From: Tetrahymena thermophila SB210
Taxonomy: Eukaryota > Ciliophora > Oligohymenophorea > Hymenostomatida > Tetrahymenidae
Assembly: GCF_000189635.1 (NCBI RefSeq)
Contig: NW_002476363.1
Coordinates: 248,001 to 312,000 of the forward strand
DNA length: 64,000 bases
Direction of reading: 5' to 3'
Part shown: positions 2,700 to 19,193 of the stretch, piece by piece
Layout of the letters: every line of letters begins with the position of its first letter
Position numbering within the stretch: the stretch's first letter is position 1
Program-made: the position numbers and the translations under genes
Notes under the pieces: generated by a model
What the model saw: the letters and a program-made list of their open reading frames with translations, nothing else
Told to the model about the DNA's origin: nothing
Databases searched by the model: none

Positions 2700-3101
2700 T
2701 TTATTTACTTTTGAGAGCTATTTGATATTAAAATAATTTATCTATTTATTTTTTTAAAAATATTATCAGGCTAGAAAGTAAATGAAATTAATTAGAAAAA
2801 TTGTTATTTTGGTAGATCTACCTTTTTAATAATTACGCGCAATTAGATAGAAATAATGAAAGATATATCTAAAAAATATTATTTAGAGTTAATTAATTAT
2901 TTACTTTTTTTGTTTTTTTGTTTGTTTGTTGGCTTTCAAATTAATTTAATTAAGCGCAGATAGAATAACATCTAATGAAAATCATCAAAAATTATAAGAA
3001 TTAAATAAAGCATTAGGTAGGTCAGTCTTTATTTTTGCATGTGAAGTTAAAAAATGATTCAGTTTATATTTTAGAAAATTGTTTTCAGTTATATATAACT
3101 T
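2700..3101. other. Intergenic stretch between the PHD gene and the first tRNA
   Basis: AT-rich spacer upstream of the minus-strand PHD gene, so it should contain that gene's promoter. There is a short T/G-rich run near 2908-2932. No ORF or repeat of note. Confidence 0.5.
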
Positions 3102-3174
3102 GGGTAACTAGCTCAAATGGTAGAGCGTCTGGTTCGCATTCAGAAGGCACGGGGATCGATGCCCCGGTTATCCA
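3102..3174 (+). tRNA. tRNA-Ala (anticodon CGC)
   Basis: 73 bases fold as a complete cloverleaf. The acceptor stem GGGTAAC pairs with GTTATCC and contains the G3:U70 wobble that identifies alanine tRNAs. The anticodon loop is TTCGCAT, giving anticodon CGC for GCG codons. The T arm is CGGGG-ATCGATG-CCCCG. No intron is present. A T-run follows at 3177 onwards and can serve as the Pol III terminator. CCA is not encoded, as expected in a nuclear gene. Confidence 0.95.
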
Positions 3175-3309
3175 AATTTTTTTTATAAGTCCCACATAAT
3201 CAATGCAAATAAACACATTTAACGAAAAGCTAAATTCCCCTTCAAATTTTAGTGAAATGCACTTTTTGCTTTAAATATGTGTATTTCTTTATGTCTTAAA
3301 TACTAACGA

Positions 3310-3382
3310 GGGTAACTAGCTCAAATGGTAGAGCGCCTGATTTGCATTCAGGAGGCACGGGGATCGATGCCCCGGTTATCCA
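3310..3382 (+). tRNA. tRNA-Ala (anticodon TGC)
   Basis: Second alanine tRNA, in the same orientation and about 135 bases downstream of the first. It has an identical acceptor stem with G3:U70, an anticodon loop TTTGCAT (anticodon TGC) and an anticodon stem CCTGA/TCAGG. It differs from its neighbour at only a few positions, all in or next to the anticodon arm, which suggests tandem duplication followed by anticodon change. A run of T follows directly. Confidence 0.95.
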
Positions 3383-5857: not shown

Positions 5858-7476
5858 ATGCACGATGATATAACAGAAGTATTTGAAAGTTTGAAAGAAG
5901 TAAATACATTGATAGTAGCTAGTAAATATAGATATTTTTTTAATTGAATATCAAAAGCTTATTAATGATGATAAATCTTATAGAGAATAATTGACTCTTA
6001 AGTTTTTGTATTTAATTTAATGAGAATTACTTTTAATATTTTGAATAAGAAAAAAGTAAATTGATTCTGATTAAATAGAAGATTTAATTCTAGGAATTTC
6101 CAAATACAAAAATCTTAAATCTCTGACATTAAATATTGAGTGAGCATTTCTTTTTTTTGAAAAAAGATTAAAAATTTTATTATTTTTTTAAGAAAACATA
6201 GATTTGGCTCTGAAAAAGTTTACAAAATACTACAAGAAATACCATCGTTATGCCCCAATTTAAATTATTTAAATTTGAATTTAGAGTAATTTATTTTTTT
6301 GAATTAGTTATTAATTAAATTTGATATATAAAAGCGATAATTTGTTAAAAGACATTGGCAGCTCTAAGTTAGGATAAGCTTTAGGATAACTATTTTTTAA
6401 TTTGACATCTTTAACTTTGTTTTTTAAGTATTTTTAACAGTAAAATCTAAATTACTAAATCATAAACCAAATAATAGAAAAAATTCTATCTAAGAAATTG
6501 GTTCTTCTGGAATTGGTATTGGGATTGGCTAGTGCCTGAACTTAGAATATTTATCATTGGATTTTGAGTAACAATTATTAATTAAAATATTTTTTACTTT
6601 CTTATTTCTAAATACAAAAATTGTTTTTTTAGTTTAAGTTTTGTGATAATTTTATTTTTACTGAATTTAAAAAATTAAAAATTTATTTATTATTTTTTAT
6701 AAAATTCTTAAATCCAAAAGTAAAATGTTAATTTTAATGCTTATTTTTCTTCTTAGATTAAATATTATAGGAGATAGTGGGGTAAAAGGTCTTGCACTTG
6801 GATTATCTGAATGCATCAATCTAAACTAGCTTATTTTGTGTTTAGAGTACTAATTTTATTTAAATAAAAATTAATCATTCATATTTTTAAAATATTTATT
6901 TAAAGTGGTAACAAAATAGGAGACTCTGGAGCAAAATCTCTTGGAGAAGGAATTTCTACTTTGAAAAACTTAAAGTTTTTAAATATTTTCATGATGTAAT
7001 AAGTTTTTTTGAAAATTCTAAATAAATTCAAAAAAAATTGAATAAATTATTTTTACCAAAAATAAATAAAGATAAAGCTTATTAAATATTTAGGTAAAAT
7101 AAAGTAAGATGTAAAGGCTTAATAGGATTGAGTCAAGGGATATCTAAATGCACCAATTTAAATTCTTTATTTCTTCATTTAATGTAATAATTTTGTATTA
7201 GTTTGGTTTTAATTTATAAGCAAATAAAAAAATGTTAGGATGAATGAGATCAAATATGAAGGGTTAGGTATTTTCACCAGAAGCATTATTAAATGTTCAA
7301 AACTTAGCTTTTTGTTTATTTCACTTTAGTAAATATTTTAATTTATAGTATTTACTTTAAATTTTATCTTATAATTTCATTATAAAAGTATGAATAAAAT
7401 TGAAGCTTACAATTTAAATGAATTGAGAAAAGTTAAAAAATTAAAAAGACTTGTCAGAAGTTTTATATTATTCTGA
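5858..7476 (+). CDS. Leucine-rich-repeat protein with one repeat per 90-base exon, 304 aa
   Basis: Eleven exons: 5858-5914, 5958-6001, 6050-6139, 6193-6285, 6335-6427, 6478-6567, 6757-6846, 6906-6995, 7094-7183, 7239-7328 and 7389-7476. Joined, they stay in frame for 304 residues. Each middle exon encodes one ribonuclease-inhibitor-like leucine-rich repeat, for example GDSGVKGLALGLSECINLNQ or GDSGAKSLGEGISTLKNLKF. Six repeat exons are exactly 90 bases and two are 93. All introns after the first are phase 2, so any exon can be lost or gained without breaking the frame. LRR solenoids bind protein partners, but no enzymatic or membrane domain is visible and the partner is unknown. The first intron is the least certain. 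Confidence 0.8.
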
Positions 7477-8090: not shown

Positions 8091-11000
8091 ATGTCTTCAA
8101 CTAGTTCATCAAAAAGTTCTTCTTCGAAGGGACCAGCTAATGTTAAAAAGAATGAAATTTAGGAATTGCAAGATGATCTCATTAATAACAACGAGAATAT
8201 AAAGAAGGAAGCCGTCAGAAAAGTAAAAAAAAATTAATAAAAAAGGGAAAAATGAGGTTTTACATTTCCATAGAGGAGTTTAAAAGTTAGTTGAAAAATT
8301 TATTTTAGTATCAAGATCAACCTTCAAATTAAAAGGCTACTCTATGTTGAAATGTGGCAGCAACCAAATAAATTAATTAGCATTAAATAATTCAATTTTG
8401 AATATTTTTTAATTATCCTAGATTATTGATGCAATGACCAGAGGTAAAGATGTTTCTATGCTCTTCCCTCACGTTTTAAGAAATATGATGACCAAGAATA
8501 TGGAGTTAAAAAAATTGATATATTTATACATCATTAATTATGCTAAAACAAAGCCTGATTTAGTTATTCTCGCCATCAATTCATTCAAGAGTGTAATTTT
8601 ACATTAATTGTACAGCTAAAAAAAAGAAATTTTGAATTGCTTTTAGTTTTAATTACTTTGCAGACAATTAAATATATTTTTTTAGAAGGAATTTTCAACA
8701 ATGTTAATATAAATAGGATGCTTCAGATCCATCAAACCCCATGTTAAGAAGTTTAGCAGTAAGAACTATGGGTTGTATTCGTGTTAAAGAAATTATAGAA
8801 TACTTGTTGGATGCATTAAAAAAAGCAGTAAAAGATGAAAACCCTTACGTCCGTAAGACCGCTGCAGTTTGTATAGCAAAAATCTATGAAACTTATCCAG
8901 AATTAGTAGTTGAATAAGGTTTCTTATAGCAATTAGAATACCTTCTTAATGATAGCAATGCAATGGTTATTGCCAATGCAGTCTGTGCCTAAATGTAAAT
9001 TTAAGATATAAAGGGAGGAAATGTTTTGGAGCTAAATAAATTCAAAGTTTAAAAATTAAGAACTGCAATGAACGAATGCAACGAATGGGGTGTCATTTAT
9101 ATTCTTGACGCTCTTGCCGTTTACCGTCCTGATGACACCAAAGAGGCAGAAGAGTATTTACATATTTTAAATCCATTCATTTGTTTTCAAATAAATAAAT
9201 TAATTGAGTGAATTTTGAATCACGCATAAAATTTTATTTATTTCAGAACACTCTACATTTAATTTAAAATTTTTGGAGCAAATCCGACAGCTGGTCATTT
9301 CAACATAGCATTCAGAAAGCAAAATAAAATAAGTGCATATAAATTTAATTAAATAAAATATCTATAATTTAATCTATTTCACTATTTTAAAAGAGACTAA
9401 GATGAAAATTATTCTTTAAAACTTAACTATTTATTAATAGACAGTCGAAAAACTTTGATTAAATTTATTTTAAACATTCCTGCATTCAATCAATAATTTG
9501 GAATCTCCAATCTATTTTTAAACTAGGTTTCTGAAATAAATCTACCTTTTAACAAACAAATAAACAATCAACAATCTAAATTTATGAATAAAGATAATAA
9601 AAATAGATAAATAAGTAAATCAAACAATATAGTTTAAATAAAAAGAATTAAATTAGTAATAATACAAAAGCATTATTAAAATAATTAAATTTTTGATGTA
9701 AAAGTTAGACCTATCAATCGCTTTTATGAATTTTAAATATTAAAGCATATTTAACTTATCAATAAATGAATTCAATTTTATTTTTTATAATTTTACAACC
9801 TTAACAATTAAAAATTAATATTAAAATAAAACAGTATTTTAGAAAGAGTTATTCCAAGATTGTCTCACTAAAATCCAGGAGTTATTTTGAGTGCTACTAG
9901 AGTTATCATGAAATATTTAGACTACTTAACTGACCCTGAAATGGTTATTAACTATTGCAAGAAACTAACCAGTCCTTTAATTAGTTTATTGAATATGGAA
10001 CCTGAAATCGTATTTATTGCTTTAAAAAATATCAATTTAATTCTATAGAAGAGACCTATCATTATTGAGAAGGAAATTAAATTCTTCTTCTGTAACTTTA
10101 ACGATCCCATCTACATCAAAGTTATGAAAATTGAAATTCTTATTCGTCTAGCTAACATTGATAATATTCCTTAAATTCTTCACTAATTAAAAGAATATTC
10201 AGCAGAAGTAGATATTGAAATAGCCAAAAAGGTAAATTAAATAAATAAAAAAATAGATTTTTTTCTTCATAAAATAAGAAATAAGCAAATTTATTCAAAT
10301 ATAAATTAATGAATTATATTTTATTTATTTTACTTCAATTCACTTTCAGTCTGTCTTTAAATTATTTCTTTGAATTAACCAATAATTTTTTATAATAAAT
10401 AAATTAGTCTATCAGAGCTATTGGTAGATGTGCTATCAAGTTAGAAAAAGCAGCCCAAAAATGTGTTTAGGTTTTAAGAGACTGCTTAAGATCAAAGGAT
10501 GACTACGTTACTTAGGAAACTATTATAGTTATTAGAGATATTTTTAGAAAATATCCTAAAGATTATGAAGGTTTGTTAAAAGAAATATGCGAAAATTTAA
10601 AGACTTTAGATAATCCTGAAGCTAAGGCTGCCATGATTTGGATTATTGGTGAATATGTTGACACCATTGAAAACTCTGGCTCACTTCTTGAAGAATTCGT
10701 TAAGAGGTAAATAAATAAATAAAATATACCTTCATTTTTATCAAGAAAGTTTAGATTATTAAGTAATAAAATCAATTATTTTTTTAATATTTAGCTTTAT
10801 TGAAGAACCAGCTATCGTTTAGCATTAAATTTTAACTAGTTGTGTTAAATTGTTCTTGATGAGACCTTAAGATGGTTACGATTTAGTCCACAAATTATTA
10901 CAATAAGCCACTAACAATTGTGAAAATCCTGATATCAGAGATAGAGGTTATATTTATTGGAGATTGCTTGGTTAAAGCCCTGAATTAGCTAAAAAAATTG

Positions 11001-13039: not shown

Positions 13040-14180
13040 AAGTCTCAGATTATTTTAGAAAAAGAATTAAAAATGGATAAATGATGAAATTATCATCGTT
13101 CATTCATTCAATCAATCAATTTGTTTATCTAACTACCTACCTACCTATCAATCAATCCTTTTTGTTTATAAAAGTTGTAATAATACTAGCTTATTTTAAC
13201 TTTGTTTGTCTCCGATTGCATTTTTGTATTTTGGATATTCAACTTATATTAAATGCTTTTTCAAATTGATATAATTGTGTAATCTATTTTTTCAATAATT
13301 TTTTAAGAAAATAATTCATTAGAAAACACTTTCAATTTATTTTTACTTTTCTTACAGAAAAATCTAATTTTATTTCTATATGAAAAAATTAAATTTTATT
13401 CAAATTAATTAGAACTTTTCTTTTTTTAGCAATAGCTGCTTACTTGAAAAAACAAAATTAAGCATCTAATTTTATTTTAGATGTTTTTAAGTCTATTTAT
13501 TGCTAATTTATTAAAATCAATTAAACATTTAGTAAAAAAATTCTTGAAAAACTTCTCATGTAAAATGAATTCCTTGATTAAATTAATCACTTTGGATTAT
13601 GTTTTAAAGGATAAAAAAAATTAAATACCCATTTTCGACTCTATTTAAAAATTTTAGCTATGCTTTTTTAAAGAGAAAATAATTTTAAAAATTTTGCATT
13701 TATTTCAAGCATTAGAAAATAAAAATGCAAGCAAAAAGGAAAATTTATAAATATTAAATAGTATTTTTCAGAAATGTTCTTGTTTAGTTAATAAATAAAT
13801 CAACTAATTTATTTTTATTTTTTTAATTTTAGTAAAAATTGTAAATAAGAATACATCATAAAAAAGAAGAAGTATCTAAAAAATTTGTAATTTTTTTTAT
13901 TGCTTTGATTTATTTAAATTCAGGTGTAATTTGTAAATATAAAAAGTAGAATCAATCAAAGTTATCTGCACATGTATTTAAAATTAAATGAGTTACTGCG
14001 CAACTTTTTTTACTCACAAATTATTAATAATATTTTCTTTGATGTTATCAAATTTTGTTTGTATAAGAACCATACATTCATTTCTGAATTTATAAGCCTA
14101 CAAATAAATAATAATAAATCAAATAATCCAATTAAAAATAGAACAAAATATATTTAATAGAACCTATCAAAATCAAAAAA
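13040..14180. other. AT-rich intergenic stretch
   Basis: Contains a CCTACCTACCTATCAATCAATC-like patch at about 13130-13157 and otherwise low-complexity AT sequence. Short open frames here (around 13081-13269 and 13972-14157) lack splice context and family resemblance. It includes the promoter region of the hydrolase gene. Confidence 0.5.
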
Positions 14181-15164
14181 ATGAATATACACGACTACCA
14201 TCACAATCCTACTCTCCGTTATGATTATTGTAAAAAAATTATGAAAATTTCTTAGATTGATAATCCTACAGACTTAAAGTAAATACCTGGATTAGAAGAA
14301 GAAGGCTTCAAGGAAGTAGGGGCTGTGAATTTTATTGTTACTGATAATTAGTATAAAATATGTGTGCACAGAGAACCTGCTCAAGGCGATGTCAAAGCTG
14401 TCTTAATTTTAATGCATGGATATAATGGACACATGAAAAGAGCTTAGCATATAGCTAAACAGCTAGCCTAAGAAGGGATTGAAGTTATCGGTTATGACTA
14501 GAGAGGATTTGGAAAAAGTGAAGGACCCAAAGGTTATATAGAGTCATTAGAGTAAATGATTGATGATTTTGAAGAGTTTTATAAGTAAATTATTGTTGAG
14601 CATTACCAATATAAACAAAGAGGACTACCTATATTTATGGGAGGTCTTAGTCTAGGCGGAATGCTTTCTTATAGAGTAGGCTTAAAATACCCAGATAGAT
14701 TTAAAGGAATTGTAATGATGGCTCCTGCCATTTAACCATTTCCCCTTTAGTATAAATTTATTTATTATCTTGCAGTGACTCTAGGAAAAATAATGCCTAA
14801 AGGTAATTTTATTAGCACTGGTGCTTGGAACTCTAATAAATACAATGAAGCTGAAATAAATATTAAAAAAGACCCTCTTTAATATACCTAAAAGCCTCCC
14901 TTCTCATCTCTCTCTTCAGTCATTAAAGGCTTATATAATACAAACGAAACATTTGAATAGTTTACTTGCCCTTTCCTTTGCATTATGGGTGACCTTGAAA
15001 AAATAGTAGATCCTTTCCTAGGTTTTGATTTAGAACATAAATCCCCCTCTTAAGATAAAACTGTAAAGTATTATTAACAAGTATGGCATAATATATGGCA
15101 AGAACCTGAAATATATGATATTAATAAAGATGTTATCTAATGGATTTAGCAAAGAATTAATTGA
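14181..15164 (+). CDS. Monoacylglycerol-lipase-like alpha/beta hydrolase, 327 aa
   Basis: A single-exon frame of 327 residues. The fold signature is complete: oxyanion-hole HG at 79-80 (LILMHGYNGH), a strand and loop with YDQRGFGKSEGPKG at 105-118, the nucleophile elbow GLSLGG with Ser157, and a C-terminal His303 (VWHNIWQEPE). This is the serine-aminopeptidase-S33/monoglyceride-lipase layout, and the usual length is about 300 residues. It is likely a cytosolic or membrane-associated lipid esterase, since no signal peptide is seen. One oddity: the acid of the triad normally sits in G-x-x-D before IVDP, and here the aligned residue is Glu273 (GDLEKIVDP), with Asp271 and Asp277 close by. Substrate unknown. 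Confidence 0.92.
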
Positions 15165-17338: not shown

Positions 17339-19193
17339 TAATAGCTTATTTGATAAAAATAATTCAGAATAATTCATTTAAGAATTGAAAAAATATTCCT
17401 AATTGACAAAATTAGCTTTGAGATTGGTGTAATTTATAAATATATTTTTTAATTGCAAGTAAACTTAAATTGAATTACTATTAAAAAGCTTGAATCAACT
17501 AAGTAGTGATATAGGTTCTATTTTAGGTAATGGATTTAGTCAAATGTCTAATTTACAGAGCTTAGAATTAATTCTAGAGTAAAATTAGAATAAATTAAAA
17601 TAATTTTAATTCTCTTTTATTAAAAGTTAATGTGAATATGACGATAATATAAATATAATTGGCTTACTTAATTTGCTCACAAGTTGCATCAAATTAAAGT
17701 ATTTAAATATACAACTCAAGTAAGAATAGCAAACATTCCTTATTTATTTTATTTACTTATTTTTTCTTTTTTAAATAGTTTTAAATTAATTAAATTTAAT
17801 ATTTTGAAAAAGTGAAAATAAATTAAACAATTAGAGATTATAAAATATTACCTAAAACATATAAAAATGTAAGGATCTGACTGATCTCTCATTAAATTTA
17901 AGGTGAATTTATTTTTTATGTTAATTCATTTATTTTTTTAAAAATTTCATTTTCAAAAATGATTTGATTTAAATTATGAAACAAAAAAGTGAGTGCTGGA
18001 TTGATGATGATGGTGTTTAAATTTTAAGCGGCATTATAACTGAATTCTAATATTTGATCAATATTAACTTAAACCTAAGGTACATATATACTAATTGTTA
18101 AAATCAATTATTCTATTCTTCATTTAATTTTTAATTAAAGGAGCTAAATATTTTAAATTAACTTTTTTAAAAAAATTAAAAACACTTAAAAAAACCAAAA
18201 ATTATTTTAAATATTTTAAATTTTAAGATATTTCCATCCTTTAAATTTTTCATAAGAAACATTATATTAAAATAGAATTAATAAATAAGCATACATATTT
18301 ATTAAAAAATTATTTTGAAAAACTATTAATTTTAAATAATAGCTTTCTTTAAAAGTTCAATTAAAGAAATCTAATTATTTTTTAAAAGCTGCAATTTTAT
18401 AGGAGCTAAAGGTGTGATTGATCTTGGAAAGCAGTTATCGTAGGTAGTGAATCTCAAAAAGCTTTAACTTTCAATGAAGTAAAATAAATTCTGAAATATA
18501 TATTTAGCTATTTAATTTAATAAATCTAAATTTAATATTTTACTTTGATGAGTCTTCATAATTTATAAATAAATTAATAAGCTACAATCATTTTAGAAAT
18601 GCTGGAATCGCTAATTTAATAGAAGAAATATCTTAATGTAGAAGTTTATAATATTTAGATCTTCAGTTAGAGTAACCAAAAATATTTAATTTTAAACTAT
18701 GAATAACTTATTTATTTATATAATTTTTATTTTGATATAAATTTTACTTAATTTATTAGAAAAAATAAACTCAGTAGCCAATATTTTTCAGAATTAAGCA
18801 TCTAATTTTTAAAATTTGTAAATCTCTCAACTTTAAAGCTAAGTTTTATGTAAGCTGCTTAAAATGCTTTTACTATTAAATTATATTCATGAAAATATTT
18901 TTGTACAATTAGATAAAATTATATCTAAGATGAAGGATTAATTGAGTTCGGAAGAAATTTAAAAAGAATTAAATGTTTGAAGCGTTTCATTATCAATATT
19001 GAGTAACTTTATAAAATTTAATTACATTAAATGCAAAAAAAATAAATTTTTTTTCATCTTTCTTAGATTAAAAAATTCAAAAATATTTTTATAAATAAGG
19101 GAAAATAATCAAATTAGCTATGAAGCAATTTTTCTATTCTATTAGAGAATAATTAAAATCAGAATGTTGGTTGAACACTTCATAAATTTTTGA
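17339..19193 (+). CDS. Second leucine-rich-repeat gene with 90-base exons; 5' end unresolved
   Basis: Ten exons read in register: 17339-17428, 17489-17578, 17627-17719, 17813-17902, 17990-18079, 18389-18478, 18582-18671, 18760-18849, 18913-19002 and the last 19067-19193 ending in TGA. Eight are exactly 90 bases and one is 93. All junctions are phase 2, and each repeat exon encodes one LRR such as GSILGNGFSQMSNLQSLELI or RNAGIANLIEEISQCRSLQY. The organisation matches the gene at 5.9-7.5 kb, though the repeats have diverged. No ATG exon was found upstream, so the gene is either longer than shown or truncated. Partner and role unknown. No extra domain is visible. Confidence 0.72.

Follow-up and report, generated by a model that had tools for sequence, protein, structure and literature searches.

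The gene at positions 5858–7476 (+) of the window, a 64,000-nucleotide stretch of Tetrahymena thermophila SB210 DNA (contig NW_002476363.1), is almost certainly, taken as a whole, an ordinary member of the published class of leucine-rich-repeat (LRR) genes with 90-bp exons, and is most like the older 'group II' of that class. The 90-base exon-per-repeat pattern to which the original prediction drew attention is real, but it was already published in 2019, and the present analysis confirms that gene class from raw sequence. New beyond the available text of the 2019 paper (PMC6564038) are contiguous 90-base repeats, without introns, in the same T. thermophila genome.

Previous work found a 90-bp exon in 1,500 of the 1,874 LRR genes of T. 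thermophila, with phase 2 in more than 98% of the introns ahead of 90-bp exons in LRR genes (Xiong et al. 2019, PMC6564038). The genes carry 1 to 51 such exons each, a range ascribed there to ectopic recombination, so that the easy repeat-number evolution foreseen for the present gene is documented for its class. Unequal crossing-over, possibly with retrotransposition, was put forward as the origin. Group II of that study comprises 566 genes which are older, have introns near 56 bases and show no repeat masking at the DNA level.

Read with ciliate code 6, in which TAA and TAG specify glutamine, and with GT-AG introns, the gene is predicted to have 11 exons encoding 304 amino acids and a stop (Table 1). 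GT-AG borders were present in all ten predicted introns, which measure, in order, 43, 48, 53, 49, 50, 189, 59, 98, 55 and 60 bases. The first intron is phase 0 and the other nine, by predicted splicing, are phase 2, in agreement with the claim that every intron after the first splits a codon at position 2. The splice model also reproduced the repeat-exon lengths, 90 bases in six cases and 93 in two, with one LRR of 30 or 31 residues predicted on each, as in the exon-per-repeat cassette array that had been described. All six of the 90-base exons lie in a phase-2 setting under the predicted splicing, and five of them are consecutive (6478–7328). Any exon had been said to be removable without a frameshift; when each repeat exon was deleted singly, one open frame with one terminal stop was kept in 8/8 cases. 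The strict pattern is broken by exon 1 and by the repeat exons of 93 bases. The model is weakest at its 5' end, whose exact position is not secure, because a donor after 5899 fits equally well as one after 5914; the 5899 version gives a product of 299 residues.

Table 1. Predicted exons of the 5858–7476 gene and candidate exons of a second LRR gene in the window
Feature	Positions	Strand	Basis and remarks
Exon 1, start codon	5858..5914	+	donor uncertain (5899 or 5914); next intron phase 0
Exon 2, 44 bases	5958..6001	+	splice model; ends in phase 2
Repeat exon 1, 90 bases, one LRR	6050..6139	+	splice model; profile score 25.8
Repeat exon 2, 93 bases, one divergent 31-residue LRR	6193..6285	+	splice model; missed by 29-residue profile
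Repeat exon 3, 93 bases, one 31-residue LRR	6335..6427	+	splice model; profile score 12.3
Repeat exon 4, 90 bases	6478..6567	+	splice model; profile score 49.0
Repeat exon 5, 90 bases, after long 189-base intron	6757..6846	+	splice model; profile score 44.2
Repeat exon 6, 90 bases	6906..6995	+	splice model; profile score 54.2, the gene's highest
Repeat exon 7, 90 bases	7094..7183	+	splice model; profile score 45.9
Repeat exon 8, 90 bases	7239..7328	+	splice model; profile score 13.7
Last exon, C-terminal motif (..KLKRLV..) and TGA stop	7389..7476	+	splice model
Second gene, candidate exons 1–3	17339–17428, 17489–17578, 17627–17719 (93)	+	profile scan, phase-2 reading
Second gene, candidate exons 4–6	17813–17902, 17990–18079, 18389–18478	+	profile scan, phase-2 reading
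Second gene, candidate exons 7–9	18582–18671, 18760–18849, 18913–19002	+	profile scan, phase-2 reading

A 29-residue repeat profile was made from 120 repeats in 11 LRR frames on other contigs, which avoids circularity; it replaced an earlier profile built from the gene's own exons (threshold 12). A repeat model of this kind, run on the 304-residue product, had been proposed as a check. The independent profile scored above 4 only at residues 35, 96, 127, 157, 187, 217 and 247, and each of these seven peaks marks where a repeat exon starts. The only one of the eight repeat exons to be missed, the 93-base exon 6193–6285, scored −27 in the profile register, and its extra residue probably shifts its repeat out of register. 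On both strands of the 64-kb window, 11 AG-90-GT phase-2 exons scored 12 or more, six of them in this gene and five in the second gene. By the same profile no such exon occurred when the gene region was dinucleotide-shuffled 300 times, nor in any of 10 shuffles of the whole window. When the window was scanned with the profile alone, blind to splice sites, 12 repeat-like stretches were found, and AG before and GT after 90 or 93 bases flanked all 12.

Eight of the gene's ten introns are 43–60 bases long, the others being 98 and 189, which places it with group II by intron length. A DNA search with the gene covered its own genome, a 101-Mb assembly of 445 contigs, and returned the gene itself and nine weak matches of 71–79% identity over 75–142 bases. 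By query coordinates, eight of these nine lie mostly in the AT-rich introns of the gene; the ninth, C17:1340495-1340569 with 79% identity across about 70 bases, falls largely within repeat exon 6050–6139. Seven of the weak matches (L002–L008) contained no 90-base LRR exon by profile, and the earlier, self-derived profile had also found nothing in them. The weak matches were therefore dropped as candidate relatives. Because its introns are short and its DNA matches elsewhere are weak, the gene fits group II rather than group III, an assignment that is indirect. It shares with the published class (PMC6564038, as far as the available text describes it) the 90-base exon array, the phase-2 introns, the LRR consensus positions, the short introns and the weak DNA matches; it differs in that two of its eight repeat exons are of 93 bases, with no other notable difference.

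As read from the sequence with predicted splicing, the gene would hold eight RI-like LRRs of 30–31 residues, each on one symmetrical phase-2 exon. Because one phase-2 intron would sit at the same codon of every repeat, exon length would equal the 90-base repeat unit. On the reasoning of Xiong et al. (2019), unequal crossing-over in the germline nucleus probably enlarged the array by duplicating whole units of exon plus intron, and the copies would then have undergone drift and intron shortening. Repeats would likewise be gained and lost when such units recombine in the germline.

The top protein matches elsewhere in the T. thermophila genome were LRR frames without introns between the repeats, a kind of frame that a six-frame search favours. 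In three protein searches, the best 130 of 340, 150 of 717 and 150 of 4545 candidates were scored; among the best 150 of 4545, at least 41 places gave one-frame matches of 59 residues or more. Thirty arrays, from 47 of 69 loci, were classified, the 22 loci left out being 14 that overlapped others, the seven weak DNA matches L002–L008 and one TERT locus (L009). Twenty-four of the 30 arrays were contiguous, four (the 5858–7476 gene included) were exon-per-repeat and two were mosaic, in a sample biased to contiguous arrays. Among 324 repeats, 265 were contiguous, 29 had AG and GT on both sides, 14 stood at the end of a run next to AG or GT, and 16 were unclassified. At the classification threshold of 14 only five of the eight repeats of the 5858–7476 gene appear, so weak repeats are missed in general. 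Given the bias to contiguous arrays and the few candidates scored, the counts describe the sample and are not to be read as genome-wide ratios of architectures.

The contiguous arrays (L010, L011, L012, L014, L021 and others) have the 30-residue unit and the register of the 5858–7476 gene but, unlike it, no introns between repeats. In the 11 contiguous frames from which the profile was built, the spacing of successive profile hits was 30 residues in 83 of 109 cases and 31 in 14 of 109. Since the 30-residue period thus also dominates the contiguous relatives, the 90-base size is not a feature of splicing as such. Further, the C-terminal motif [KR].[KR]RL[VI], present in the 5858–7476 gene, ended nine of 25 closed contiguous frames, one doubtful frame (C138) included; it occurred in 60 of 50,000 shuffled tails, a figure that gives no clean probability because the motif was chosen after the tails had been viewed. 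One of the two mosaics, C300 (L066), has single 90-base exons together with two of exactly 180 bases, so that two of its repeat boundaries lack an intron. Of the six introns that separate its repeats, four have lengths indivisible by three and must therefore be spliced, and C300 is the only firm mosaic. The other, C138 (L054), is doubtful as a mosaic; its 60-base spacer keeps the frame, contains no stop and may be an insertion rather than an intron.

For the T. thermophila MAC genome, the available text of PMC6564038 reports no more than a single case in which two LRR exons may have fused. The contiguous and mosaic arrays are at odds with this statement taken literally, perhaps because the published search targeted young exons that are similar at the DNA level. 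The main text of that paper, so far as it was available, uses none of the terms 'intronless', 'single-exon', 'intron gain' and 'intron loss', and the best-ranked literature matches for Tetrahymena leucine-rich repeats together with intronless genes or intron gain included none relevant by title.

How the intron-per-repeat state arose is a question of origin, and the first answer considered here is compatible with membership of the published class. The 90-base LRR unit may predate the introns: one phase-2 intron would have entered a contiguous array, the ancestral form, and the intron-bearing unit would then have spread. We judge the chances of this account to be evenly balanced. It is consistent with the contiguity of 24 of the 30 sampled arrays, in the same register and mostly of the same period, with the shared C-terminal tail, and with the report that genes without 90-bp exons are older (PMC6564038, available text). 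Repeats of the two LRR genes of the window (n=10) had a mean identity of 0.283 to contiguous repeats, against 0.278 for contiguous repeats among themselves, figures which agree with the account but are biased, because the profile used to select the repeats had itself been derived from contiguous arrays. A FastTree tree was built from 317 29-residue repeats, of which 269 were contiguous, 24 were group III-like, 10 came from the two window genes and 14 from C138 and C300. The 10 window repeats required 10 changes, the 24 group III-like repeats seven and the 14 mosaic repeats 14. As yardsticks, single contiguous arrays scattered as well, with 16 and 15 changes, and the tree is for that reason silent on the direction of intron change.

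It is also possible, if rather improbable in our judgment, that the contiguous arrays go back to spliced 90-bp-exon genes, as old retrocopies or as copies converted by cDNA, with wholesale loss of the introns. The two 180-base exons of C300 are what precise loss of single introns would give, and a retrotransposon, REP, is associated with the 90-bp-exon class (PMC6564038, in the text available). Against such an origin stand the single possible fused case of the published search and the lack of any strong DNA match elsewhere in the genome for the 5858–7476 gene, the sole gene so tested. Further, at least one contiguous array carries another domain, the frame at L019 (C288), in which a protein-kinase-like N-terminus, read by eye, is fused to the LRR array.

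Three architectures occur among the arrays, namely contiguous arrays, a mosaic with 180-base exons and strict exon-per-repeat arrays. We offer only tentatively the wider proposal that one 90-base LRR unit underlies all three, that the 'exactly 90-bp exon' was inherited from this unit, which occurs both with introns and without them, and that such exons also explain the exon-skipping bias of T. thermophila taken up below. If the proposal is true, it becomes testable whether introns were gained or lost at a single recurrent site: the contiguous arrays and the C300 mosaic provide paralogous sites with the intron present or absent at the same codon, a natural test of gain versus loss.

The majority consensus of the eight repeats is xNxIxxxGxxxLxxGISxCxNLxxLxLxL, with leucine at residues 12, 22, 25, 27 and 29 and mostly isoleucine at 16; only residues 22 and 25 are invariant across the eight. 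Consensus residues 12, 16, 22, 25, 27 and 29 match the conserved LRR-exon bases 36, 48, 66, 75, 81 and 87 given in the legend of S15 Fig of PMC6564038. In Pfam the product matched LRR_4 only, at 19 bits and under the cut-off of 27, so that identification of the LRRs depends on the family profile and on PDB matches. Among the latter, the best was 5irm (E 2.5e-6; entry titled 'Uncharacterized protein'), which we take to be NOD2; other LRR proteins matched too, and ribonuclease inhibitor (1dfj) was a weak match (E 0.11). The repeat type is similar to that of the LRR domains of ribonuclease inhibitor and NLR proteins (1dfj, 5irm), but the sequence similarity is weak. Vertebrate RI-like repeats are 28–29 residues long. 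In contrast to NLR proteins, no NACHT domain was reported for the product in the Pfam search. Like the gene studied here, human NLR genes carry their LRRs on modular exons (PMC6642158, available text).

The original prediction spoke of receptors. A crude hydropathy test of the 304-residue product found no hydrophobic N-terminus, and the Kyte-Doolittle value did not exceed 1.41 in any 19-residue window; most Tetrahymena LRR genes lack transmembrane domains according to the available text of PMC6564038. With neither a hydrophobic N-terminus nor a strong transmembrane window, 'receptor' is not supported; most likely the product is an LRR horseshoe, soluble and intracellular, that would bind another protein.

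The repeat exons might also be alternatively spliced cassettes that give proteins of different length. All eight are frame-neutral, and two published observations, in the text available, point the same way: T. thermophila is the only organism outside the animals with an animal-like bias of exon skipping toward 3n exons (p = 2.18e-5; PMC6142364), and the LRR exons of human NLR genes are modular, with exon 5 of NLRP3 being skipped (PMC6642158). Against these, RNA-seq of T. thermophila gave 139 cassette-exon events among 1,474 alternative-splicing events, and intron definition was inferred there (PMC3274533, available text). LRR exons are not named as skipped in the available text of PMC3274533 or PMC6142364, and in repetitive genes wrongly mapped reads can pass for exon skipping. 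Because eight of the ten introns of the 5858–7476 gene are of a size suited to intron definition, and because cassette events are so small a share of those recorded, exon skipping and length isoforms are unlikely in this gene, and we consider cassette use of its repeat exons very improbable. For the genome as a whole, no cause of the 3n bias is given in the available text of Grau-Bove et al. (2018, PMC6142364). We propose that 90-base LRR exons could be its source, and the class would offer a concrete, checkable explanation for the exon-skipping bias in one ciliate. The literature found on Tetrahymena, exon skipping and LRRs held no title on the subject. Introns of cassette events in T. thermophila average 279 bases (PMC3274533, available text), near the 257-base peak of group III introns. 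The coincidence fails: the average counts three introns per event, taken to include the skipping one, and with a 90-base exon the flanking introns would be nearer 190.

A second LRR gene with 90-base exons lies at 17339–19002 (+) of the window. Its nine candidate exons, eight of 90 bases and one of 93, are all open in the phase-2 reading used by the scan; the exon chain is a prediction, four of the nine candidates scoring only 6.8–12.0. Other features of the window include a TERT exon that aligns with PDB 2r4g over 102 residues, 101 of them identical; 6d6v also matches, and both entries are presumably T. thermophila TERT. Just downstream of the 5858–7476 gene, an Adaptin_N / Cnd1 stretch at 8636–9208 (+) is likely part of an AP-complex large subunit. 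An alpha/beta hydrolase frame (Hydrolase_4) occupies 14088–15161 (+) and a PHD-finger frame 1187–2347 (−). Two tRNA-Ala genes, at 3101–3175 (cgc) and 3310–3382 (tgc), are both on the + strand, about 130 bases apart.
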